Shown here piece by piece: positions 18,068 through 52,687 of a DNA stretch of 64,000 nt (its first letter is position 1; every line of letters begins with the position of its first letter). Origin of the DNA: Candidatus Mnemosynella biddleae (GTDB lineage Archaea; Halobacteriota; Archaeoglobi; Mnemosynellales; Mnemosynellaceae); assembly GCA_002011165.2 (NCBI GenBank), contig MTMI02000010.1:124001-188000 (forward strand), in the 5' to 3' direction. The notes under the pieces were generated by a model that made no database searches, was not told the origin of the DNA, and saw nothing but the letters and a program-made list of their open reading frames with translations. A program made the translations under genes and the position numbers.

Positions 18068-18150
18068 GCGGGGGTTGCCGAGCTGGAAAAGGCGCAGGGC
18101 TTAGGACCCTGTCCCGTAGGGGTCCGGGGGTTCAAATCCCCTCCCCCGCA
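18068..18150 (+). tRNA. tRNA-Leu (UAG)
   Basis: An 83-nt class II tRNA with acceptor stem GCGGGGG/CCCCCGC, discriminator A, anticodon loop CTTAGGA (anticodon UAG), a long variable arm and T-loop TTCAAAT. CCA is not encoded. The 3' half (from 18100) is supplied by the provirus attachment site, yet the gene remains intact. TTTATATG at about 18007 is a strong upstream promoter element. Confidence 0.95.
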
Positions 18151-18154
18151 TGAT
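18100..18154 (+). repeat. attL, 55-bp direct repeat overlapping tRNA-Leu 3' half
   Basis: Identical base for base to 52627-52681. It begins in the anticodon loop and runs four bases past the discriminator base. In the virus it encodes 18 codons (LGPCPVGVRGFKSPPPHD) of the integrase, so attachment site, tRNA and protein-coding sequence are superimposed. Confidence 0.95.
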
Positions 18155-19232: not shown

Positions 19233-21169
19233 CACTCCTCCCTCCAGAGTACTGAATACATTGTGAGATAACATGTGCTGGTCGATTGATTGTCTCCCCA
19301 GATCCTCATTTTCAGCTGTGAACCAGTGTTCATGAATGTGTGGACTGAATCTTCTGTGATCTCTTCCCAGTTTGTACCTCCGTCTGCACTCATTTCTATT
19401 TTTGAAATGTTCCCAACAGCATTTAACCGAACCTCTCCTTGTGTGATTGTTGTTCCGGTTTCAGCGTTAACGAGTACTGTTTCAAGTTTTTTCTTTCTGA
19501 TTACCCTGATGTTATCAAGCCAGAAATACCAATCCGGTTCATCTGAAGACGTGTGTTGCTCACTCATAACCCACTTGATTGTATGTACTCCAGAATATCC
19601 AGAAACATCAATCACCACATCATTCACAATAGAATCGTAATCCTCTCCCGGATGGTCTGGATTCCATGATTTTCCGTGACTCCATAGCTCTACTCCATCA
19701 ATATAAAAATACATATAAATATGACCACCAATTCCAGATGAAAAAACATCTGCAAATAATCTTGCATCAAATTTTAAAGTGTCGACATCTGTGAGATCTA
19801 CGTCCTGAGATATTTCTAAAGTTCTACCCCCGTATAAGTAAGTTCCTGTTGTTACTTTAAATGAATATAATCCATCAGTTTTCCAATCCGTTGCGGCTCC
19901 ATATCCACTCATTCCATTATTTACAACTGTCCATCCAGATGTATCTCCAGTTTCAAAAGAGTGATTCTGTACAGCGTGCTCTCCTGTTATGTCGTAGATC
20001 TTATTATTTACATCATAACTTCCAGTACTGTTTGCAGAATCAATCATTGATTCGTCTTCAAAAAAATCAATGAGAGCAGAATTTAGAGTTGTTGAAATCA
20101 GCTCGTCCTCAACCTCTTCAGCAAAACTCTCTTTTGCCTCTTCGAGTGCGGAATACCACTGCTGCATCCGAATTTCCTGTTGCTGTCTTTCAATCTCTTT
20201 CAGCTTTGTGATGATGTCACTGATGTCTCTTTCAAGCTCAACATCGCAGAGACCATCATCGAGATTGAACATCACCGATGTTATTGTGTATGTTTCTCCA
20301 ACTCCATCTCCATCTTCATCGACAACAACAGAGAGCCCAGGTTTCAGATTGAGATTTATGAACGTTCTGATTGTGTATTTCACGCTCTCAATTTTGTATT
20401 TTTCAAGCAGTGAACGTGCGTATTCATTCAGAGTATCGAAATCCAGCCCCTCAAGAATCACCGGCTCAGCCTCTTTCACACCATAAAGATTCTGTGAAGT
20501 TGTATCGTTTTCCTCAACAAAAAGCGGGACTCCGAACTGAGGTTCTCCGCCCCAGACATGGACCCTGTTCTTCAGTTCATAGATGTCTATATTCTTCTTC
20601 GATCCCTCGAGGATGTTTCCAAATTTCGGAGAAAATGTGATTCCAGAGCTCATTGATCCTTTCTCTTCGATATAGATCTTCCCATCAGCATCCACTCTCC
20701 AGTAATAATCTCCAAGAAGCTCGCAAACTGTGTTTAGTGCTTTGTGTCGTGGAATTGCTTTAAAATCAACAGTAATTGCTGGGTATGAAGATGCGAGAGC
20801 AGATTTATCAACCCAAGAAAACGCAGAAAGAATATCATCTATAATTGTTCTTGCATCTGTTGAAGAAAATGAGACTCTGATAATACGCTCTGAAAATTCA
20901 TATGTTTTCTCCTTTGCTTTCACTCTTTTTATTTCAGTGAAAAGATCCTCATCAATCTCTTTCACATAACCCCTGAAAATAAGCTCATCGTTATAGTATA
21001 GCTCAAGCTCATCATCGATGTTGATCTCATCTGTTGTGATGAATTCGAGTTCTGAAAACTTGTTGATGCTCCTTGTAAATCTCACAGATGATGCAGTAAT
21101 CTCAGAGGAATCAGAAGACCTCACAAGCTTGTATTTCATGAGATCATTTATCTCGAGTGCCTGAACCAT
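19232..21169 (-). CDS. tail hub / receptor-binding tail protein
   Basis: About 645 residues, directly after the tape measure. Residues 1-330 resemble the baseplate-hub/Tal type: an early beta-barrel (LELYYNDELIFRGYVKEIDE) and KNRVHVWGG typical of tail-hub proteins, followed by EIERQQQEIRMQQWYSALEE helices. Residues about 410-560 form a jelly-roll-like module (HSFETGDTSGWTVVNNG, YWFWLDNIRVI-like region) expected of carbohydrate-binding domains. The likely role is host recognition at the tail tip. TTG 21172 is in frame, but ATG 21169 overlaps the tape-measure stop (TGATG). Confidence 0.75.
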   Translation of the reverse strand: MVQALEINDLMKYKLVRSSDSSEITASSVRFTRSINKFSELEFITTDEINIDDELELYYNDELIFRGYVKEIDEDLFTEIKRVKAKEKTYEFSERIIRVSFSSTDARTIIDDILSAFSWVDKSALASSYPAITVDFKAIPRHKALNTVCELLGDYYWRVDADGKIYIEEKGSMSSGITFSPKFGNILEGSKKNIDIYELKNRVHVWGGEPQFGVPLFVEENDTTSQNLYGVKEAEPVILEGLDFDTLNEYARSLLEKYKIESVKYTIRTFINLNLKPGLSVVVDEDGDGVGETYTITSVMFNLDDGLCDVELERDISDIITKLKEIERQQQEIRMQQWYSALEEAKESFAEEVEDELISTTLNSALIDFFEDESMIDSANSTGSYDVNNKIYDITGEHAVQNHSFETGDTSGWTVVNNGMSGYGAATDWKTDGLYSFKVTTGTYLYGGRTLEISQDVDLTDVDTLKFDARLFADVFSSGIGGHIYMYFYIDGVELWSHGKSWNPDHPGEDYDSIVNDVVIDVSGYSGVHTIKWVMSEQHTSSDEPDWYFWLDNIRVIRKKKLETVLVNAETGTTITQGEVRLNAVGNISKIEMSADGGTNWEEITEDSVHTFMNTGSQLKMRIWGDNQSTSTCYLTMYSVLWREE

Positions 21170-23013
21170 CAAATCCTCACTCCGTAATACTTCGTGAGCT
21201 GTCTTCTCTCAAGCTCATTCAGCAGATAATCCACATCCGCTTTATTCTCGATTTTTTCAATGTTGATCGTGACCGAGTTATCGATGCTCTGATGAGCAGG
21301 AGGCTGTACAATCTTTATCTCTGCGGGAGTGAGAGGTCTAATGAGTTCGTTTATACCGAGCATTGCCCTGAGATTCGGGGCCGTGATGGTTGGAATTGTG
21401 AGAGCCTCTTCAATCCCAGGTATTTTTGAAACAAGTGAGTTGTAGAGAGATATTGCTCTGTTCACGAATGAGACGATTGCATTGATGATTGTTTGAATAC
21501 CATCAACGATTTTCAGCACAACGCTGATTGTGAATTCTCCTATCCCTCTCCAGAAATTCGCCCAGTTTTCATAGAGCCACTTAACTGTTTCAACGAGCCA
21601 GTTAAATGCTTTTTTTGTTGCATCTCTAATCCCGAAGAGATTCAGAGCCCATGCAGTTCCAAGTGTAGTAATAGCGAGTATAAGAACTCCAATTGGTCCA
21701 CCAAGTGCCGTAAGTGCTAGTTGTAGAGTGCCCACTGAAGTTACTAACGTTTTTATTGTTAAGATTGCTACCATCATACTTTGAATAAAACCTATGAGTG
21801 GTACAACAATTTTCGCAAAAGTGAATGCTAATACACCAACCATAATTATTAACTTCGCCACCTCTGGATGTTTCTCTAACCAAGAAAATAACGTCGCAAA
21901 TACTCCAGACAGAATATTAATTGCTCTTGTAAGAGTATTTACTACATTCTCTTTTCCACCCATATTTCTGATTAAATCTGAAAAAATGTTCTTCACACTT
22001 TGTATTATTGAAAACAAATTTTTGAATGTCGGACTTAACTCATTTATAAATGATGATATGCTTTGGCCAATTCTCTTAAAATCAACAGTATTCAAATATG
22101 TGAGGATCTTCTCAACAACACTACGAATTTTCTCAAATAAAGAATCAGCTTCAAAAGATGCAAGAGATTCATTCCATCCCATTAAAGCTAAACTCGCTCT
22201 AAATAACGCATCTTTAACGTTAGAGACCATACCTTTCAATGTTTGCGATTGTTTTTCCATTGCACCTGCATATTTTTCGTTCCAAATAGCCAAAAGAGTA
22301 GAAGTGATGATCTCTCTGTTATTCCTATCAATTTGAACTCTACGTTCTTTACCATATTTATCAGTATATAACAAGAATGTCTCTCCTTGATCTTGTATTG
22401 CTTTAATTCCGAATTCTTTCAACCTCTCGAATTCTCCTGTTTGAGCATCAGCTAATGCCTCAACAACCATCATAATATCTTTACCCATCGAAGCAGCGGT
22501 ATCCCCCAATATCCTCAGAACTCTATCAGCCTCTATACCGTATGCTTTAAGTCGCACTGTTGCCTCAACAAGATCTGGTAATTCGAATGGAGTAGTTCTC
22601 GCAAAATCTGATAACCATGCAAGTTTGTGTGCTGCTATTTCAGCATTCCCATATAGATTTTCGAGAGTGATAGCAAATTGTTCCATTTCGGCAGCAGATT
22701 GAGCAGACTTATACCCGCTTGCACTAAGTGCTGCCCCTAAGACTGCTCCAAGAATTTTAGCTGTTTTTGTTATTCGATTTACAGCAGATGTTATTCTATT
22801 CTGTGCATTCTCAATTGATCTTGAGAGATCATTTATTGATGCACTAACAGAAGAATTTACATGTTTAAATGTATTTTCTATATTCCTCGCATTTAGACTT
22901 ACAGTATTATCAAACGATTTTATTTGAGTTTTTGCTAATGCAATATTAGTTTTTAATGAGCTAATATCCCCCCGAATTTTAATAATAATGTCACTTATTA
23001 CATCAGATGACAT
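21169..23013 (-). CDS. tail tape measure protein
   Basis: About 614 residues: N-terminal helices with DISSLKTNIALAKTQIKSFD, then AKILGAVLGAALSASGYKSA and a phage tape-measure segment (TTPFELPDLVEATVRLKAYG, AASMGKDIMMVVEALADAQT), followed by long hydrophobic helices (LIIMVGVLAFTFAKIVVPLI). It sets tail length. GTG 23037 in frame would overlap the promoter; ATG 23013 with GGGAGAG upstream is chosen. From about 21,700 to the start the gene is clearly more AT-rich than its last 500 bases, suggesting a mosaic gene with an imported N-terminal part. Confidence 0.85.
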   Translation of the reverse strand: MSSDVISDIIIKIRGDISSLKTNIALAKTQIKSFDNTVSLNARNIENTFKHVNSSVSASINDLSRSIENAQNRITSAVNRITKTAKILGAVLGAALSASGYKSAQSAAEMEQFAITLENLYGNAEIAAHKLAWLSDFARTTPFELPDLVEATVRLKAYGIEADRVLRILGDTAASMGKDIMMVVEALADAQTGEFERLKEFGIKAIQDQGETFLLYTDKYGKERRVQIDRNNREIITSTLLAIWNEKYAGAMEKQSQTLKGMVSNVKDALFRASLALMGWNESLASFEADSLFEKIRSVVEKILTYLNTVDFKRIGQSISSFINELSPTFKNLFSIIQSVKNIFSDLIRNMGGKENVVNTLTRAINILSGVFATLFSWLEKHPEVAKLIIMVGVLAFTFAKIVVPLIGFIQSMMVAILTIKTLVTSVGTLQLALTALGGPIGVLILAITTLGTAWALNLFGIRDATKKAFNWLVETVKWLYENWANFWRGIGEFTISVVLKIVDGIQTIINAIVSFVNRAISLYNSLVSKIPGIEEALTIPTITAPNLRAMLGINELIRPLTPAEIKIVQPPAHQSIDNSVTINIEKIENKADVDYLLNELERRQLTKYYGVRI

Positions 23014-23044
23014 AACTCTCCCAGAGGAATATAACACTTTGAAG

Positions 23045-23061
23045 TATTTAATACCGAAAAA
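23045..23061 (-). promoter_or_regulatory. virus-specific promoter copy 1 (tape measure)
   Basis: On the minus strand the sequence is TTTTTCGGTATTAAATA: a BRE-like TTTTTCGG joined to the TATA-like TATTAAATA. The same 17-mer recurs exactly at 31010-31026 and 37730-37746, with near copies at 40706-40722 and 44912-44928. Here it lies 32 bases upstream of ATG 23013. Confidence 0.8.
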
Positions 23062-23063
23062 GA

Positions 23064-23510
23064 TTAGATATGACTTGAAATTACATTTACGACCTCTTTT
23101 TCAAACCCAAGTGCGTTGATCTCCAATTCGTCATTCGCAGTTTTTAATATGACTTTCGGTAAATATTTCTCATAACTTATAGAGACAGAAACGATTTTAT
23201 CGTAAGGGATTACTTTTAAGCTCTCCCTTAATGAAGCTAATTTACTTAATCCTATGTTCATTGTATAGATTATTACTCGTTTGTCTGTACAAATTAAAAA
23301 TTTATCAATTCCTCCCTTCATTCCTCCCATACTCGGAATTAATATTCTAGAAATGAGTTCTATCTTTTCATTTTGCTGTAAAATCGGTTTGATTGCTAAA
23401 TATTCTTTTAGTTTTAATTTTGGATGTCTGTATAGGATAGATAAGAATTCATCTTCTATCTCTTTGCTGATTTTCTTATCTCCACCTCTCTTGAAGAATC
23501 TCACCCTCAC
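23064..23510 (-). CDS. bacterial PH-domain (bPH) protein
   Basis: The protein has 148 residues. The second half reads LIPSMGGMKGGIDKFLICTD KRVIIY, followed by a beta-rich region (IVSVSISYEKYLPKVILKTA), like the PH-like domains of the YdbS/YokE type. No membrane segment. Start GTG 23510 follows GGAGAG at the end of the AbrB gene, so the two are co-transcribed. It lies in the AT-rich cassette, upstream of the tape measure promoter. A second bPH protein is encoded at 51766. Function unknown. Confidence 0.65.
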   Translation of the reverse strand: MRVRFFKRGGDKKISKEIEDEFLSILYRHPKLKLKEYLAIKPILQQNEKIELISRILIPSMGGMKGGIDKFLICTDKRVIIYTMNIGLSKLASLRESLKVIPYDKIVSVSISYEKYLPKVILKTANDELEINALGFEKEVVNVISSHI

Positions 23511-23519
23511 CCACTCTCC

Positions 23520-23675
23520 TCATGCTTTTCGTAGTATTATTTCGTTGTCTTTTCTAATAAAAACTACTCGATCTCCGGGGTTTAAGCCCAAAATCTTTCG
23601 AATTGGCTTAGTTATAGTAATTTGGTGTTTCACACTTAAAGTTGCCACACCCAATATCTCTTCTTTTTTATTCAT
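23520..23675 (-). CDS. AbrB/SpoVT-type small DNA-binding protein
   Basis: A 51-residue protein. VATLSVKHQITITKPIRKIL followed by GLNPGDRVVFIRKDNEIIL is a complete AbrB swapped-hairpin domain. It is the first gene of the two-gene minus operon in the cassette and faces a divergent promoter with a palindromic site, so it probably controls this cassette (inference). Confidence 0.8.
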   Translation of the reverse strand: MNKKEEILGVATLSVKHQITITKPIRKILGLNPGDRVVFIRKDNEIILRKA

Positions 23676-23704
23676 GATGTAAATTAAGTAACGAAATCTT
23701 TAAA

Positions 23705-23722
23705 TACTTTACGACTAAAGTA
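23705..23722. promoter_or_regulatory. palindromic operator between divergent cassette genes
   Basis: TACTTTA-CGAC-TAAAGTA is a perfect 7-bp inverted repeat, and further TAAAG copies follow to about 23745. It sits between the AbrB gene and the plus-strand operon and overlaps the TATA region of the AbrB promoter. Likely binding site of the AbrB-type protein or of the 86-residue protein. Confidence 0.5.
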
Positions 23723-23764
23723 AAGAATGTAAAGAAAATAAAGAAAGAAAAGAGGGAGGTTAAA

Positions 23765-24025
23765 ATGGTTGGCGAAAAAATTGTAGTAGATAAAGAAGAA
23801 TGCGTTAGAGTCACATTGTTGCTCAAGAAGAGATATGTTGAATTTTTAATGGAATATGGTGGATGGATTGGTTATAAAGAGCAAACTGAATTTCTTGAAA
23901 AGATAATCGGAGATTCCATTAAATCAACAATCTATTCAATACTCGATGAAGCTTCAGTGATTGCTCCTCTAAAAATACATGAATTTAAAAGAAAATACAA
24001 ACTGACGGAAGAAGAACCATATTAA
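23765..24025 (+). CDS. hypothetical cassette protein, possible DNA-binding
   Basis: Eighty-six residues, ATG preceded by the strong ribosome binding site GAGGGAGGT. VRVTLLLKKRYVEFLMEYGG followed by two helices loosely resembles a ribbon-helix-helix fold, but I cannot confirm that. It precedes the Hint/LAGLIDADG gene by 31 bases on the same strand and probably forms an operon with it. Confidence 0.55.
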   Translation: MVGEKIVVDKEECVRVTLLLKKRYVEFLMEYGGWIGYKEQTEFLEKIIGDSIKSTIYSILDEASVIAPLKIHEFKRKYKLTEEEPY

Positions 24026-24056
24026 TTCATTATTTTTATTTTTCGGGGTGTTTTAG

Positions 24057-25202
24057 TTGGGTTATGATGAGAAAACTGAAGTTTTAACGAAAAATGGTTG
24101 GAAATTTTTAAAAGATCTCACCATTAGAGATGAATGTGCAACGCTTAATCCAAGAACACATGAATTTGAATGGCAAAAAATTGAAAAAATTACTGTAAAG
24201 AGATATTCTGGTGAAATGTATTGTTGTAAAACTAAATATGTTGATTTATTAGTCACACCAGATCACAAGATGTACGTTTGCCCATATAAAAAGTGCACTG
24301 TTGATTCTACGGATAAATTTAAACTGATAGAGGCACGAGATGTTTTTAATACTGGAGTTCATCACATTACTACCGCTGCGAGGTGGAGGGGAGAAGAAAA
24401 AGAATATTTTACATTACCAGAATGTAAAACAAAAACGGGTTGTAGGATTCCAAAGAAAGAAATTCCGATGATGGATTGGGTTGAATTTTTTGGTTATTAT
24501 ATTGCTGAGGGGTGTATTTGGGAGGGAGGAAACGGTCATTATAGAATTGTGATTGTGCAAAGAAGTGAAAATTTTGAAAAAATTTACGACGCATTTCATA
24601 GGATTGGGATGGGAAAAATCAAAATTAAGAGTAACCCACACTACCCACATGTCCAACATATTATAATGCATAATCTACAATTATATTCATATCTCTCTAG
24701 ATTTGGTAAATCCTATGATAAATGGATACCCATAGAAATTAAAAATCTTTCATCTAAATACCTAAAAATCTTTTTTGATGCATATATCAGTGGAGATGGG
24801 TTAATAAAAAGTTATAAAAGTGGGAGTGTAGGTATTGGCGTTTCAATAAGTGCATGGACATCTTCTAAAAAATTACGTGATGATCTACAAGAAATTGGTA
24901 TTAAACTTGGATATGGAGTTCAATATAAATTGGATTGTGATATAGGAAAGAGTCATTATGTAAAAAGTATTGGAAGAACAATTACAGCAAAACATAAATG
25001 TTGGGTTATTTATTTTTCGCCACGGAAGACTCCATATTTCAATCAGAAACATAATGAGAGAATAGCATATAGTAGAAAGAAAAAAACGTTGACTGAAGAA
25101 AAGAATGTACACTACTCTGGAAAGATTTACTCTCTTGATGTTCCAAATAATATAATTCTTGTGCGTAGAAACGGTAAATGTTTTTTCTCTGGATCCAATT
25201 AA
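24057..25202 (+). CDS. free-standing Hint-domain LAGLIDADG homing endonuclease (intein-derived)
   Basis: The 381 residues have intein architecture without exteins. Block A is YDEKTEVLTKNGWKFLKDL; block B contains LLVTPDHKMYV; two LAGLIDADG helices are FFGYYIAEGCI (about residue 142) and FFDAYISGDGLI (about 238); block F/G is YSGKIYSLDVPNNIILVRRN ending in FFSGSN and stop. The usual first Cys/Ser is absent (a TAG stop precedes the TTG start), and no nucleophile follows the last Asn, so protein splicing is not possible. GGGGTG upstream supports TTG 24057 as a start. It is probably an active endonuclease mobilising the AT-rich cassette. Its last four bases overlap a truncated tape-measure start on the other strand. 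Confidence 0.85.
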   Translation: MGYDEKTEVLTKNGWKFLKDLTIRDECATLNPRTHEFEWQKIEKITVKRYSGEMYCCKTKYVDLLVTPDHKMYVCPYKKCTVDSTDKFKLIEARDVFNTGVHHITTAARWRGEEKEYFTLPECKTKTGCRIPKKEIPMMDWVEFFGYYIAEGCIWEGGNGHYRIVIVQRSENFEKIYDAFHRIGMGKIKIKSNPHYPHVQHIIMHNLQLYSYLSRFGKSYDKWIPIEIKNLSSKYLKIFFDAYISGDGLIKSYKSGSVGIGVSISAWTSSKKLRDDLQEIGIKLGYGVQYKLDCDIGKSHYVKSIGRTITAKHKCWVIYFSPRKTPYFNQKHNERIAYSRKKKTLTEEKNVHYSGKIYSLDVPNNIILVRRNGKCFFSGSN

Positions 25203-25279
25203 ATACTCCTATCTAATCCACTTAAATCCCCTTTAATTCTGATGATAATCTCGCTTAGAGATCCAGTTCCGAAAACCAT
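25199..25279 (-). pseudogene. truncated 5' stub of an older tape-measure gene
   Basis: ATG at 25279 overlaps the stop of the upstream tail gene (TGATG), as in the rest of the operon, but the frame ends after 26 codons. The peptide MVFGTGSLSEIIIRIKGDLS GLDRSI matches the start of the present tape measure (VISDIIIKIRGDISSLKTNI): nine identities in 19 aligned positions and mostly conservative changes elsewhere. I read it as the original tape-measure start, cut off by arrival of the cassette. Confidence 0.72.
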
Positions 25280-25788
25280 CAGGGTGCCTCCACTATCACG
25301 TCTTTTAGTTTAATCTTCTCAAAAGTTTCAGCTACTACAACCTCTGTCTCCGGATCAGTTGTAAATACCTCATCTCCGTTCTCATCCGTGATGTAAACTC
25401 CAAGTTCTCCGTTTTTGATTGCAAGAGGAGTTTCTGGGGCAGAAATGAATTCAGGTCTTTCGATCTCGTCTGGAATGATGATGTTCTCCTCTTCGATGAT
25501 CCTCTGCACTGCAATTTTCTTCATCTTTTTCAGACAGAGTTTTCCTTGAGCATCGAGATAGACTGGAATGGTGTTTGGGATTCTCCCTCCAACTGAATAT
25601 ACTTTTGTTCCAACAACGATCTTTTTGAAAATCGGATTTCTCACTTCATCCCATGATGCCGCTACTCCAACCTCAGCATCCGTTTCAATTATCACCGTAT
25701 CTCCCTGATACTCAATAACCGTGAATGAGGAATCACAATCTGGCCGAATTCCCTCTTCGTCTTTAATTATTTTAACCCTCCTGAGCAT
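25279..25788 (-). CDS. hypothetical tail-module protein
   Basis: A 169-residue acidic protein rich in beta strands (CDSSFTVIEYQGDTVIIETD, LGVYITDENGDEVFTTDPET). GGAGGTGA is well spaced before ATG 25788. Its start lies inside the end of the LamG-like protein gene, and its stop overlaps the tape-measure stub, so it belongs to the tail operon. No family recognised; an accessory tail or fibre role is likely. Confidence 0.6.
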   Translation of the reverse strand: MLRRVKIIKDEEGIRPDCDSSFTVIEYQGDTVIIETDAEVGVAASWDEVRNPIFKKIVVGTKVYSVGGRIPNTIPVYLDAQGKLCLKKMKKIAVQRIIEEENIIIPDEIERPEFISAPETPLAIKNGELGVYITDENGDEVFTTDPETEVVVAETFEKIKLKDVIVEAP

Positions 25789-28700
25789 CGCTTCTCACCT
25801 CCAAAATTTTCGTTAAATTGGAATTAACCATCGAGAAAAAAGCAATATCTTGTGGCATTAGTGTCTCTGATTCGAGTCCGCTAATCGGTATCAACAGGAA
25901 GTAATCGAGCACAGTCGTTGCTCCCACATTAAAACCGCTCTCCGTAGCTAACCCAACCGCAATCTGATCATTTAAATCATCGTTATCAATAGCTATTGCT
26001 CTAATCAAATATTTATAATCGTTATTTAATAAATCACCTACCAAAATCCATCCACTCTCATCTATCGTAACCGAAACACCGTCATTGTTATTGTATCCTC
26101 CCTTAAACTGAACTTTACTTGCTGAAATACTATTCTGCAACCCTTTAACTCTAACAACGACTAAATATCTCCCTAAAGGTATATCCGACCCAGCTTGAAG
26201 ATATAAATGTTCATAAATCCAATTAGTATTGTATCCACCATGTGCTAATCCGCCAGCAATAACACAACTGTTCCCGCTGCTCGTCACTTCCTCTGCGTTG
26301 ATTTCGAGGTCGTCGAATTCTACTGTACCTAAACCAGCCCTTAAACCAACATAGCCACTTGTAAACGTTGTATCAGTAGCACTAACAACCAATGACCCAT
26401 CAATATATACTGATATGTTGCCTGTGCTGCTATCTACGTGAACTTCTACTTCATACCATTTGCCCAAATCCAATGTATATGTTGCAAATGCTAAAACCGT
26501 TTCAGTACCTCCGACAGACTTTGCAATTTTTACTAGATTTAAATCTTGTCGCAATGATATCAAATATGTATTGTTATACGGATTCGTTGCATCCTGTGCA
26601 AATACAACTATCTGACCAGAACAATATCCACTAGCATTTTGACTAACCGGTCTATACTTAACCTTTATAGTTCCTGTACCCCACTTGAGAGCATTAACTA
26701 CAATACCGTTGTCCCAACCGTCACCATGTGTAATAACTCCATTCGTTGCATCCCACGTATAATTCGCCACATCACCACTATACTCCGCACTGCTATCCCA
26801 ATCAAAGTCATCAATGAACCTGTTCACCTGTGCTCCTCTGCCTACCACCTCGGTTGCTGTTATGCTGAGGTTGTCAAACTCCACATCGAGATTACCTACT
26901 CCAGCAGTAGCGACTATAGCTTTTAGCCCAACATTTCCACTCGCAAATGATGTATCTATTGCCGAAACCGTAGGCGTAGCTGCATTGTCGAAGTATGCAT
27001 CTATCGTCCCTGTTGAAGAATTCCACTCAACTTTCAGATTATACCATGTTCCTGTTGTAGCCGTTACTGATGCTGATGCAAGGACAGATACAACACCGTT
27101 TAATCGTTTTCTAATATCTATGGTTGCAGCCCCTGTCGAATCGATCCTAAATCTTATGAAGTAATAATTGTCTGAATCCTGATATCCAAACACTAACCAT
27201 GCTGCTCTGTCAACAGCATTCGTACTGTTCATTTTAACATCTACACTGTATGTTCCATCAGCAAATTTCAAACTTCTTAATCTAACAAATCCCTCAGTTT
27301 CAGTATCACTATAGACCTTTAAGACTCCATTAACAGTATCCCATGAAACACCAGTTCCTGATAATATTGCATACCTCGCACTCGTATCACTGCTAAAGTC
27401 ATCCGTGTATGTCAACGGATCTGGTGCCGTGCTGAGCGTAGCGGATTCGGCTTCTTTGAAGAGGTTTGCATACCATGTTTGATAATCTTCGTACAACATT
27501 ATCCTACCATCTGTTGCTGTACACCGTATGGCACGATTAAAGTAGTACGGTGAAGCATACGCTACATACAAAATGTTAGAGCCGTCATGCGGAATAGCTA
27601 CAACAAACGGCGTATCTACAAATTGAGTACTTTCTTCGATAGGAGCCCACCCCGATCTTATATTTCCAGTACCATAGTATGCATATGCTGTACCTGTAGC
27701 CCATATCAATGCCAAAGAACCCCCAGTAACAATTTTGCAATCCATGTCATATCGTCCAAATCTTACTCTCCATATCTCACTACCATACCTCACTTCCACA
27801 TCCACATAATCAGGGGTAATCTCAAGAACTTTAGGTTCTTCAAACTCTACCCAACCAAGTAGTATTTCTGCAGTTTTCACCCAAGTAGTGCCATCCCAAA
27901 CATATGTATCTGTACCCACAGTCTGATTTAACACCCATCGTATTAGTCCGTTCTCAACCACACAATCCCCAACAAACTCATGCTCCTTACTATACACCCT
28001 CACCCACTGCGACTCATCACTGCTTCCCATCGTATCATAAACCTTAACCTCTCCGACATCATGCTCCTGAACGACATCATAGAGTAGCTTCGCAGTGTAT
28101 GTCGGTTTTAGATAACAGTAATCAATTTCTACGAGATTTACAGTCGTTGTGGCTTTCTCTATTTTTATCGTGAGAGTTTCATCAGTAAAAGCATTGAATT
28201 CTGAAGATTCAAGCAATGTGAAATCAGTCCCTCCTGTTGAAAGAGTCTCTGTGAGAATAGTTCCGCTCACGGAACCGCTTATTGTGATTTTGATATCATC
28301 TGCAACATTATCATCTCTAACTCTTATCACAACTTTATAAGTCCCCTGAGGAATATCCGTTCCAACAACAGTTGTCCACTGTGCATATTCTCCCTGTGCG
28401 TCGAGATTGATTGTCTGGAGTCTGTAGGCTTCCTCCAGATAAGTTATATCACCCGTCGTGCTTGCATTATCCTGATCAAAGAGAGGGAACGGTTTGTAAA
28501 ATGGAATGTCTCCGTCTTTTCCGGTGATCTTGGCCCAATATGAAGATAAGTCTATGATTTGCCATGGTGATTTTAGCCTGACGTTATAGGCCCCAACTGG
28601 AAGTGGGATCACAGCCGGAAAACCAATTCCAAAATCATTTACCACTATCTCATTTGTGAAAGAATATCCAGCCTGATAAACTGTTCTTGGGAGGAATTTT

Positions 28701-29044
28701 CCATTTAGAGTGAAAGGGATGAGGTTGGTAGATTTTGCTGAAATTGGAGCATCAACATTCTCGACACTTAAAAATCCTGCGTGATTGTTGAAGTTTATGA
28801 AGTTATATCCTGCTGAACGATCTACAAGTGCAAGGAGATCTTCCATGAAGTCTTCAGCATCCTTGGATCCGGAGGGGAAAAGATATCCTCTTAGTCTCGC
28901 CTCTCTTGCATTGCTTGGAAAATGCTCGAGAATAACCGGTTCTGAGATTCCAAGAGCCTTAATCTCATTAATTTTCTTCTGTTTTCTCCCGATATTCAAT
29001 TCCTCGACAGCTGGGATATACACATCACCTATATACATTCCCAT
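25772..29044 (-). CDS. large tail protein with two LamG/concanavalin-like domains
   Basis: The largest virus protein, 1090 residues. The N-terminus (MGMYIGDVYIPAVEELNIGR, then LRGYLFPSGSKDAEDFMEDL) resembles siphovirus distal-tail proteins. Two related beta-sandwich domains follow: one around YTDDFSSDTSARYAILSGTG to GNLDVEFDNLSI, the other around FIDDFDWDSSAEYSGDVANY to GTVEFDDLEI. Both have the W-Y-N/E-(L/V)-x-V-x-(W/H) core of LamG-like sugar-binding modules. Role: tail tip or side fibre that binds the host surface. It lies before the tape measure, an unusual order for a siphovirus. Confidence 0.78.
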   Translation of the reverse strand: MGMYIGDVYIPAVEELNIGRKQKKINEIKALGISEPVILEHFPSNAREARLRGYLFPSGSKDAEDFMEDLLALVDRSAGYNFINFNNHAGFLSVENVDAPISAKSTNLIPFTLNGKFLPRTVYQAGYSFTNEIVVNDFGIGFPAVIPLPVGAYNVRLKSPWQIIDLSSYWAKITGKDGDIPFYKPFPLFDQDNASTTGDITYLEEAYRLQTINLDAQGEYAQWTTVVGTDIPQGTYKVVIRVRDDNVADDIKITISGSVSGTILTETLSTGGTDFTLLESSEFNAFTDETLTIKIEKATTTVNLVEIDYCYLKPTYTAKLLYDVVQEHDVGEVKVYDTMGSSDESQWVRVYSKEHEFVGDCVVENGLIRWVLNQTVGTDTYVWDGTTWVKTAEILLGWVEFEEPKVLEITPDYVDVEVRYGSEIWRVRFGRYDMDCKIVTGGSLALIWATGTAYAYYGTGNIRSGWAPIEESTQFVDTPFVVAIPHDGSNILYVAYASPYYFNRAIRCTATDGRIMLYEDYQTWYANLFKEAESATLSTAPDPLTYTDDFSSDTSARYAILSGTGVSWDTVNGVLKVYSDTETEGFVRLRSLKFADGTYSVDVKMNSTNAVDRAAWLVFGYQDSDNYYFIRFRIDSTGAATIDIRKRLNGVVSVLASASVTATTGTWYNLKVEWNSSTGTIDAYFDNAATPTVSAIDTSFASGNVGLKAIVATAGVGNLDVEFDNLSITATEVVGRGAQVNRFIDDFDWDSSAEYSGDVANYTWDATNGVITHGDGWDNGIVVNALKWGTGTIKVKYRPVSQNASGYCSGQIVVFAQDATNPYNNTYLISLRQDLNLVKIAKSVGGTETVLAFATYTLDLGKWYEVEVHVDSSTGNISVYIDGSLVVSATDTTFTSGYVGLRAGLGTVEFDDLEINAEEVTSSGNSCVIAGGLAHGGYNTNWIYEHLYLQAGSDIPLGRYLVVVRVKGLQNSISASKVQFKGGYNNNDGVSVTIDESGWILVGDLLNNDYKYLIRAIAIDNDDLNDQIAVGLATESGFNVGATTVLDYFLLIPISGLESETLMPQDIAFFSMVNSNLTKILEVRSDAQEG

Positions 29045-31029: not shown

Positions 31030-31368
31030 CTATCTGAAGAGGAAAGAGAGTCTTGTTTTAAGACGTAATTTCCAAGAATGAATAATTCCTCTCACATTAT
31101 GTTTAACAGGCATCTTTGAAGTTCCGAAAATCAAAAATTTTGCATATTTCACATCGTTGTAAACAATATAATCGAGCTTTCTTCTGATTGTTCTCCATGC
31201 ATTTCTGTATCTTCCTGTTCTTACAGGTGAAGTCCTCACAATTTCAGCCTCGAGCGAATAGACTTCCTCTGCTAGAAGATTATCAAGAGTTTCTGGGATC
31301 TCACGAAGTTTGATCTCAAGAAATTCAACTGTTTCATCCGTTCCAATCACTTCAATTTTCATTTTCAC
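31030..31368 (-). CDS. HK97 gp10-like neck/head-tail protein
   Basis: 112 residues with the gp10-family core VYSLEAEIVRTSPVRTGRYR NAW, followed by YAKFLIFGTSKM. These proteins join head and tail in siphoviruses. The start overlaps the PP-loop gene by four bases. Confidence 0.7.
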   Translation of the reverse strand: MKMKIEVIGTDETVEFLEIKLREIPETLDNLLAEEVYSLEAEIVRTSPVRTGRYRNAWRTIRRKLDYIVYNDVKYAKFLIFGTSKMPVKHNVRGIIHSWKLRLKTRLSFLFR

Positions 31369-32048
31369 CCCTCTAAAAATACTGTGATGTCTATAACGTC
31401 TTCATGTGCGAGTTCTTCCGTCTTTTTCTTCCAGTTAAGGTATATCTCCCTCTCTGCTCGTTCTGAAGCCAACCGTTCTATCTCTTTTCTTTTCTCGTAT
31501 AGCTCTCTATGTTTCAAGTAGAGCTCTCTGACTTCTTCTTTTTTTGCAAACGGACATAACCAGCAACCGCTCTTCCTCGGAATTTTCAACCCATGTTCTT
31601 TTATAATCTTTATACATTCTTCCCGTGTAACTCTGTAGTTCACAAGAGGATATGCGTTTATCACACCGTTTTTTACTGGTTTTGTGAACGCTCTATGTTT
31701 TTCATCATATGCAATTCCTACGAACATCACAGCTGGTGATTCGATGTAATTCTTTAACGTTTTGATCTTGAATTTATATGTGCACCATCTCGTGAATTGC
31801 CCTGGGACTATGCGGTAATGCTTACAGTAGCCGTAGAGGTTGTCAAACCCCCCCACATCTGGCTTCAGAACCGTTATCTCATATCCCTGTTCTCTGAGAT
31901 AGTTCAAGTATTCATAAGTTTCAGGATGCTCACAACCCGTATCGACGAAAACGGCTTCGTATTTTATCCCGAAATCTTCGAGCATTAACATTAGTGCAGT
32001 AGAATTAACACCCATTCCATGTGAGAGGTAAAGTTTGATTTCACTCAT
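31365..32048 (-). CDS. PP-loop ATPase of the PAPS-reductase family
   Basis: 227 residues. SHGMGVNSTALMLMLEDFG is a variant PP-loop (SGGxDS-like), with VFVDTGCEHPETYEYLNYL following as in PAPS reductase/DndC-type proteins. A later RKSGCWLCPFAKKEEVREL has a CxxC that could bind a metal cluster. It may adenylate or sulfurate a nucleic acid or protein. Its position between structural genes, coupled on both sides, is unusual for a metabolic enzyme. The true reaction is unknown. Confidence 0.75.
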   Translation of the reverse strand: MSEIKLYLSHGMGVNSTALMLMLEDFGIKYEAVFVDTGCEHPETYEYLNYLREQGYEITVLKPDVGGFDNLYGYCKHYRIVPGQFTRWCTYKFKIKTLKNYIESPAVMFVGIAYDEKHRAFTKPVKNGVINAYPLVNYRVTREECIKIIKEHGLKIPRKSGCWLCPFAKKEEVRELYLKHRELYEKRKEIERLASERAEREIYLNWKKKTEELAHEDVIDITVFLEG

Positions 32049-33084
32049 CTTTAAATCTCCTCATATACTCGATTCCTTGCTCGAAATCTCTGAAGATCAT
32101 CATCTTTTTCTCGTGATGATCCAGAAGCACTGCTGGCATCACTGGATCTGCATCTCTGTATCCCCACTTCATCGTGTACCAGTCATGAATCTTGTATGAT
32201 CCAAGCCTGATGAGTACTTTCTCCTCTCCTCTGATCTTCGTGAGTTCGATTGCATATGAATGATTATGTCCGACGATTGCAATATCCCCATCTTCGTATT
32301 GCTCGAGGAGTCTTTTACATGTATGAGTCATGTTAAAGCTCGAATTGTAGCGATATTTATGTCTCACAACAACTTTGTATTCTACTCCTCCAATATTAAG
32401 CCGAAGAACTCCTCCATGACCGAGATAAACAGCATTCCCCTCCCTTGCGAGATAATCAATGAAATCAAAGTTATCAGAATTCCAGCTCCACGCTTCGTGA
32501 CACCCATGGACCATCGCTACAATCTTATCTTTGATCTTATCGATGCACTTGCGTGTGAACTCTTTCTGCATGTGTAGAGGCATCACAGCTTCATGACTTC
32601 CTCCGTCGTGGGAATACGTGTTGTAGTTGTCAACGAGATCGCCGTTCAGGATGATCAAAACGTTTTCAGCTTTTGATAGAATCTCGATGTGTCTCTTAAG
32701 AGCCTCATAATCCACATAACGATTTCCTATGTGAATGTCGCCAATTGGAATGAGGAGAACCGGAGAGTCTGTATTTACGTTTACGGTTGCTCTCTCCTGC
32801 ATGATGTCGTGTTTATCGAGCATCTTCTGTACTCTGATGATTGCCTCAAACATCTCATCAAAATCCAGTTCTCCGATATTCCGATCGATAACCTTAAAGA
32901 ACTGTTTTTGTCTTTCTCTCTCGTGCTGATTTCTGATTTTTCGAATCTTAATTCCATGTTTCTTAGCATGTCTGAGAAAAGTTACGTGATGAATGCCTAA
33001 TAGTTCAGCTGCACCTCTCACACTTCCAGCTTCACGATAGGCTTCCTCGAGCTCCTCCTTCGTGAAGCTGTATTTAACGCTCAT
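32041..33084 (-). CDS. metallophosphoesterase with N-terminal helix-turn-helix
   Basis: 347 residues. Residues 1-50 are HTH-like (LEEAYREAGSVRGAAELLGI HHVTF). The phosphoesterase part has IPIGDIHIGN, LNGDLVDNYN, VHGCHEAWSW, a VVVRHKY histidine and VGHNHS. The third motif is normally GNHD/E; here the metal-bridging Asn is replaced by Cys. Such enzymes are often nucleases (SbcD/Mre11-like) in phages. It is coupled to the PP-loop gene by an eight-base overlap. Confidence 0.8.
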   Translation of the reverse strand: MSVKYSFTKEELEEAYREAGSVRGAAELLGIHHVTFLRHAKKHGIKIRKIRNQHERERQKQFFKVIDRNIGELDFDEMFEAIIRVQKMLDKHDIMQERATVNVNTDSPVLLIPIGDIHIGNRYVDYEALKRHIEILSKAENVLIILNGDLVDNYNTYSHDGGSHEAVMPLHMQKEFTRKCIDKIKDKIVAMVHGCHEAWSWNSDNFDFIDYLAREGNAVYLGHGGVLRLNIGGVEYKVVVRHKYRYNSSFNMTHTCKRLLEQYEDGDIAIVGHNHSYAIELTKIRGEEKVLIRLGSYKIHDWYTMKWGYRDADPVMPAVLLDHHEKKMMIFRDFEQGIEYMRRFKDE

Positions 33085-52477: not shown

Positions 52478-52687
52478 ATGGGGAAGATCATGAAAAGACG
52501 GACGTCGCTTTACGTGGAAGAGAAATTAATAGATCTGGCTAAAGAAAGAGGTATAAATCTATCTCAGCTCCTTGAAAAATCAATAATCAGAGAGCTTTAC
52601 ATGAGAAATGAAGAAAAAAATGATAACTTAGGACCCTGTCCCGTAGGGGTCCGGGGGTTCAAATCCCCTCCCCCGCATGATTGCTGA
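52478..52687 (+). CDS. SSV-type integrase, N-terminal part, split by integration
   Basis: Residues 1-50 (KRRTSLYVEEKLIDLAKERG, NLSQLLEKSIIREL) look like a ribbon-helix-helix domain. The next 18 codons are the attachment site, identical to those in the left part, after which the frame runs into host DNA and stops at 52687. Joined with 18101-18967 it gives the complete integrase. ATG 52478 or 52490 may be the start. It lies at the end of the plus-strand early operon. Confidence 0.9.
   Translation: MGKIMKRRTSLYVEEKLIDLAKERGINLSQLLEKSIIRELYMRNEEKNDNLGPCPVGVRGFKSPPPHDC
52627..52681 (+). repeat. attR, 55-bp direct repeat
   Basis: Identical to 18100-18154, but here without the 5' half of a tRNA. 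The host sequence that originally followed tRNA-Leu continues from 52682. Confidence 0.95.

Follow-up and report, generated by a model that had tools for sequence, protein, structure and literature searches.

The tail locus of the provirus

The window analysed here, the whole stretch of 64,000 nucleotides from Candidatus Mnemosynella biddleae, contains a provirus extending from position 18100 to 52681. Both of its edges carry a copy of a 55-bp direct repeat (18100-18154 and 52627-52681) corresponding to the 3' end of a tRNA-Leu, and the provirus integrase reads through the tRNA. Profile searches identified the terminase, portal, MuF, capsid, neck, tail tube, tape measure (TMP) and YQBQ-like tail genes. 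The two small genes found 3' of the tail tube are called chaperones, a label that comes from their position. The run of neck and tail genes also includes, at 31365-33084, genes for a PAPS-reductase-like protein and a metallophosphoesterase.

A comparable locus was found in a provirus of the genome designated G014. The tail tube, the chaperones, the integrase and counterparts of the genes named here 25772 (51% identity) and 25279 (73% identity; 25279-25788, minus strand) are all located within this one provirus, so that a comparison of the window with G014 is a comparison between real relatives. These two tail genes are closer to G014 than most other genes of the window are. In G014, G010, G025 and L058, the TMP comes after the chaperones. 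The interval between them is occupied by one small gene in L058 and by accessory genes in G014, where an HTH/ImmA-like peptidase and DUF4411 pair and a bPH-like gene are found (L028, 9788-12229). This gap can be regarded as an accessory-gene site, since it holds such genes.

A short reading frame resembling tape-measure starts

In the window, the stop codon of 25279 overlaps the ATG of an ORF of only 26 codons, MVFGTGSLSEIIIRIKGDLSGLDRSI followed by a stop codon (25199-25279, minus strand). This TGATG coupling, pointed out in an earlier sequence-only reading of the same DNA, was confirmed, and the ORF, hereafter the stub, has its own GGAGG site upstream. The resemblance of its peptide to TMP starts, also proposed in that reading, proved to be well founded. 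The best match of the stub is the TMP start of G014, with which it aligns without any gap over residues 1-26 (score 72), followed by the TMP starts of G010 (score 55) and of the gene presently found in the window (score 53). In each of these three comparisons, none of 20,000 shuffles attained the observed score. At the DNA level, the stub shares 36 of 54 bases with the start of the present TMP over their common stretch. A profile was also built from four TMP starts, with the present TMP included and the stub left out. Run against the window, cut into 1,800 six-frame segments, it gave just two matches, the TMP (3e-15) and the stub (3e-4); the score of the former is no test because this sequence is part of the profile, and that of the latter is the test. 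No free-standing copy of this short ORF came up in the searches. The provirus of G014 has an uninterrupted TMP whose start is of the stub's kind, but the order of the genes is different there.

Judged on its sequence, the stub is taken to be what is left of the 5' end of an earlier TMP gene. Its good ribosome-binding site and its coupling to 25279 could also suit a functional small gene that merely resembles TMP starts, but it ends exactly at the end of the endonuclease gene described below and aligns over its full length to residues 1-26 of the G014 TMP, which makes this alternative very improbable.

The surrounding gene order is informative as well. In G014, the TMP follows the chaperones and precedes the 25772/25279 pair, which forms the end of the operon. 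In the window (25279-29044), the pair sits between the chaperones and the stub, and the genes overlap throughout. This location and these overlaps indicate that the order 25279-TMP predates the arrival of the cassette. No relative with this exact predecessor order, an intact TMP directly after 25279, was found, and the searches gave no match for 25279 in viral contigs, GTDB contigs or phages and none for 25772 in viral or GTDB contigs.

Gene content of the cassette

The genes lying between the stub and the present TMP are those originally described: a bPH-domain protein, an AbrB protein, a protein of 86 residues and a Hint/LAGLIDADG protein. The bPH gene (23064-23510, minus strand; PF14470, E 3.3e-7) is located between the AbrB gene and the TMP. 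No match to its product was found in the same class; a weakly similar bPH-like ORF is found before the TMP of G014 too, on the strand opposite to it. The AbrB-family regulator (23520-23675, minus strand) belongs to the looped-hinge-helix type, with a TIGR01439 match (E 3.6e-11) of 42.6 bits against a cutoff of 28.3. It is divergent from the gene of the 86-residue protein, p86 (23765-24025, plus strand), which lies upstream of the nuclease gene.

The divergent promoter/operator region separating these two genes (23676-23764) contains a TTTAAATA box and GTAAAG-type repeats. The window AbrB is identical at 33 of 51 residues to the AbrB found next to p86 in L094 of genome G026. The 89-bp intergenic region is 83% identical to its L094 equivalent in spite of an identity of 35% at the third codon positions of AbrB, which points to a conserved predicted operator. 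With G026 and G023, only the operator/AbrB part is in common. Homologs of p86 were detected only in proviruses or genomes of the same class, and none was found in phages and plasmids. Its AF2 model has a pLDDT of 81 and gives a weak match to NikR (probability 0.69, E 0.55), a modelled likeness that hints, very tentatively, at a ribbon-helix-helix DNA-binding protein.

A free-standing endonuclease at the junction

The last gene of the cassette (24057-25202, plus strand) encodes a Hint/LAGLIDADG endonuclease of 381 residues whose match to PF14528 (E 2e-5) exceeds the cutoff. This gene is an ORF of its own, not in frame with any host gene: its TTG start directly follows a TAG codon and a TAA codon directly follows residue 381. 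Its stop codon (25200-25202, plus strand) overlaps that of the stub (25199-25201, minus strand). The alignment of the stub to the G014 TMP extends through the last residue of the stub, so that the point at which the old TMP was broken coincides with the 3' end of the nuclease gene, give or take a few bases.

TATA-type promoters and the relatives of the provirus point to an archaeal host, and MCM-type inteins are found in many genomes of the host phylum. The endonuclease can be aligned with inteins from end to end, mainly with MCM inteins of this phylum, at about 30% identity. Its AF2 model (pLDDT 86.8) retrieved the TliVMA intein (2.6e-15) and also PI-SceI in a fold search of the PDB; a sequence search of the PDB returned chance-level matches only. 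The TPxH motif and both LAGLIDADG acids are retained, in IAEG and SGDG motifs aligned with those of the inteins. Position 1, which holds the Cys or Ser nucleophile (C1) in inteins, is a Gly; the protein ends with GSN and the stop codon, so that a Ser occupies the aligned position of the displaced terminal Asn, and in-frame exteins are missing. Given Gly1, this Ser and the flanking stop codons, the enzyme is not expected to splice, and a functional intein was rejected on account of these lost residues. The sequence and the model argue instead for a free-standing, intein-derived endonuclease which may be active. No relative of this enzyme was found in viral contigs, and the database searches revealed no donor or sister block for the endonuclease or for 25279.

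The cassette is bordered by an inverted match of 11 out of 12 positions (GATTAGATAKGA; 23062-23073 and 25207-25218). This match was noticed after the fact, and 2 of 300 random pairs of segments equalled it. An inversion of the cassette DNA was considered and rejected, since on inspection of the sequence a flip would not restore the TMP.

The present tape measure is a mosaic

The TMP now found in the window starts at an ATG at 23013 preceded by GGGAG, and the 50-bp gap that separates it from the bPH gene contains a TATA-like sequence, ATTAAATACTT. The new promoter predicted for this gene in the gap is plausible from these letters; a scan for sigma-70-type promoters gave chance-level results, with a model that is not suited to archaea.

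Along this gene, GC3 shifts from 0.21 to 0.47 at a change point near codon 470 (about position 21,600), a contrast that none of 2,000 permutations reaches. The genes of the cassette have a GC3 of 0.22-0.31. Causes other than import can also make GC3 vary along a tape measure. The two parts of the protein have, in addition, different relatives. The core (residues 100-380) matches, among the loci fetched, only TMPs of IMG/VR contigs, with identities of 37-55%, and no match to it was found in any fetched provirus of the same class; the matches of residues 380-614 are limited to TMPs of same-class proviruses. The core is PF20155-like in the window and of the PF10145 type in the TMPs of G014, G010 and G025. 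The present TMP is thus a mosaic, both by its GC3 and by the distinct relatives of its core and of its C-terminus. Codons 1 to about 470 (21604-23013, minus strand), with a low GC3 and a PF20155-type core, appear to be imported, and the 3' end (codons 471 or so to 615; 21169-21603, minus strand), whose GC3 equals the provirus background, is probably native.

The foreign DNA is consequently larger than the cassette of about 2.2 kb suggested earlier. The block of low GC3 runs past the start of the TMP to codon 470 or so and reaches about 3.6 kb. In the simplest reading of the sequence, the replaced tract would extend from about 25,200 to 21,600; codons 1 to about 470 would have arrived along with the cassette, the old gene supplying the 3' end. 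A simple insertion into one TMP was rejected, the start of this gene being present twice.

Two copies of the start could also have been produced by a local duplication, the cassette later separating copies that then diverged, and the 36 of 54 identical bases would be in keeping with such an event. Against it, the stub is nearer to the TMP of G014 (72) than to its supposed sister (53), it shows no decay while the copies differ at one third of their bases, and the low GC3 of the downstream copy points to import; a duplication is hence judged most unlikely. Splicing was considered too. A split gene would have the stub and the present TMP as its exons and the cassette in its intron, as in the nuclease-interrupted and spliced TMP genes reported in phage ICP1 and in other phages (PMC10448857). 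Yet no Rfam family was detected in 21000-26500 at E values up to 1, hence no known intron, the insert carries genes on both strands, and the start of the present TMP is complete, so that splicing would duplicate the N-terminus. This intron-split TMP was rejected, being the least probable of the alternatives considered.

Allelic replacement and its probable driver

The locus is, as far as sequence comparison can tell, well supported as an allelic replacement of the tail-length gene, in which most of the older TMP would have given way to about 3.6 kb of other DNA. Of the replacement by a homing cassette initially put forward, the replacement itself is upheld by the stub, the GC3 and the mosaic core; the cassette, however, is not a simple endonuclease insertion. 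In the ancestor, 25279 would have been translationally coupled to a TMP with a G014-like start. A block of about 3.6 kb from a different virus would have brought in an AbrB-regulated p86/endonuclease cassette, the bPH gene and a TMP of the other core type. On the left, this block would have been fused to codon 26 of the old TMP, exactly where the endonuclease reading frame stops, and its right end would have been resolved within the conserved 3' part of the TMP, at about codon 470. The old start would have been left behind as a dead-end ORF of 26 codons, and the new TMP would use its own start.

The most likely driver of this exchange is the endonuclease, a role that is assigned to it with some preference. 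It would have cut a cassette-free TMP, at the site now marked by the stub, and the repair of the break from a cassette-bearing donor would have co-converted the flanking TMP sequence. The AbrB protein probably keeps the nuclease at a low level through repression. The duplicated N-terminus of the stub and of the TMP implies that the left junction is not that of a clean homing insertion.

The ordinary mosaic recombination of tailed viruses could instead have replaced the TMP, with the endonuclease cassette as a passenger beside the donor gene. The region between chaperones and TMP evidently tolerates cargo, as the HTH/peptidase and DUF4411 pair and the bPH-like gene of G014 attest, and the tail genes were rearranged too, 25772 and 25279 preceding the TMP instead of following it. 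But the break falls exactly at the stop codon of the nuclease gene, and nuclease genes recur next to tail genes in a related provirus. A passive cassette is therefore regarded as possible but rather unlikely, and the replacement driven by the endonuclease is preferred.

Related p86 units in other proviruses

The insertion of a homing endonuclease does not account for the whole cassette, which also includes an AbrB/operator/p86 unit that recurs and whose counterparts carry other nucleases elsewhere. In G025, a related unit composed of a DUF2080 gene in place of AbrB, a zinc ribbon and p86 is present in two copies (L073, 3644-5135 and 8934-10471), the second of which sits between the tail tube and the chaperones. 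The p86 DNA of the two copies is nearly identical, and this identity stops about 10 bases past the p86 stop codon; TnpB follows one copy and a zinc-finger LAGLIDADG enzyme the other. In G026, the p86 unit is followed by a 139-residue protein resembling the C-terminus of MCM and by terminase genes, which shows that p86 does not always precede a nuclease. This protein (L076, 7884-8303) matches the C-terminal domain of MCM, and MCM inteins are the closest to the endonuclease of the window. Similar AbrB/operator elements are found beside the TMP of G010 and, in G014, upstream of a 215-residue protein which is suspected to be a PD-(D/E)XK nuclease and to which Pfam assigns no family. Two contigs of G021 (L074 and L075; C102 and C36) both end in p86-like DNA that is nearly identical between them, which suggests that the genome contains a repeated element.

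These units raise the possibility, still doubtful, of a mobile carrier made of an AbrB-like gene, the operator and p86, in which p86 and the operator would be constant and the nucleases interchangeable: intein-derived LAGLIDADG, zinc-finger LAGLIDADG, RNA-guided TnpB and perhaps PD-(D/E)XK-like. Such a carrier would spread itself together with flanking virion genes, and it is with the same reserve that the tape measure is proposed as the gene spread here.

Comparison with known systems

Bacteriophages already offer examples of homing nucleases that sit in TMP genes or at the borders of exchanged segments. Phage nucleases mark the limits of exchanged regions and often interrupt TMP genes, and the class of the nuclease found there can itself be exchanged (Barth, Dunham and Seed 2023, PMC10448857). 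Like these HEG islands, which are preferentially located in tape measure and tail operons, the window has a homing nuclease that borders an essential gene which has been exchanged. It differs from them by its archaeal host, by an interrupted TMP without sign of splicing, by the preserved stub of the old allele and by a nuclease accompanied by an AbrB/operator/p86 unit. Free-standing homing endonucleases cut the allele that lacks them and are copied in by repair, with co-conversion of the flanks (reviewed in PMC2988022). In T4-like phages, mobE in nrdA of Aeh1 and mobA in gene 60 of T4 are, in the same way, free-standing endonuclease genes inside an essential gene that they split (PMC2988022), but both fragments there encode parts of the enzyme, whereas the window has a stub and a complete replacement gene.

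MCM-type and viral LAGLIDADG inteins, PI-SceI and TliVMA share with the window enzyme the Hint and LAGLIDADG fold over the full length; the latter, in contrast, is not embedded in a host protein, has lost C1 and the terminal Asn and is bounded by stop codons on both sides. As for IS200/IS605-type TnpB associated with DUF2080 (NF040570, NF033496), the TnpB and the LAGLIDADG enzyme of G025 share the DUF2080/p86 setting; the window has AbrB (TIGR01439) as its regulator instead of DUF2080, together with a nuclease derived from an intein. The new part is the carrier, with its divergent AbrB gene, its conserved predicted operator and p86.

The locus constitutes a readable scar in which the start of the old allele, the junction and the right-hand breakpoint are all visible in the window, and it illustrates one route, a selfish nuclease cassette, by which a gene of virion architecture can be exchanged in an archaeal virus. 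In bacteriophages, the borders of exchanged genes are as a rule marked by nucleases, and the locus extends this rule to the tailed viruses of archaea. Finally, the swap of TnpB and LAGLIDADG enzymes behind one and the same p86 unit connects, in a way that can be tested, RNA-guided nucleases of the transposon type with homing endonucleases.
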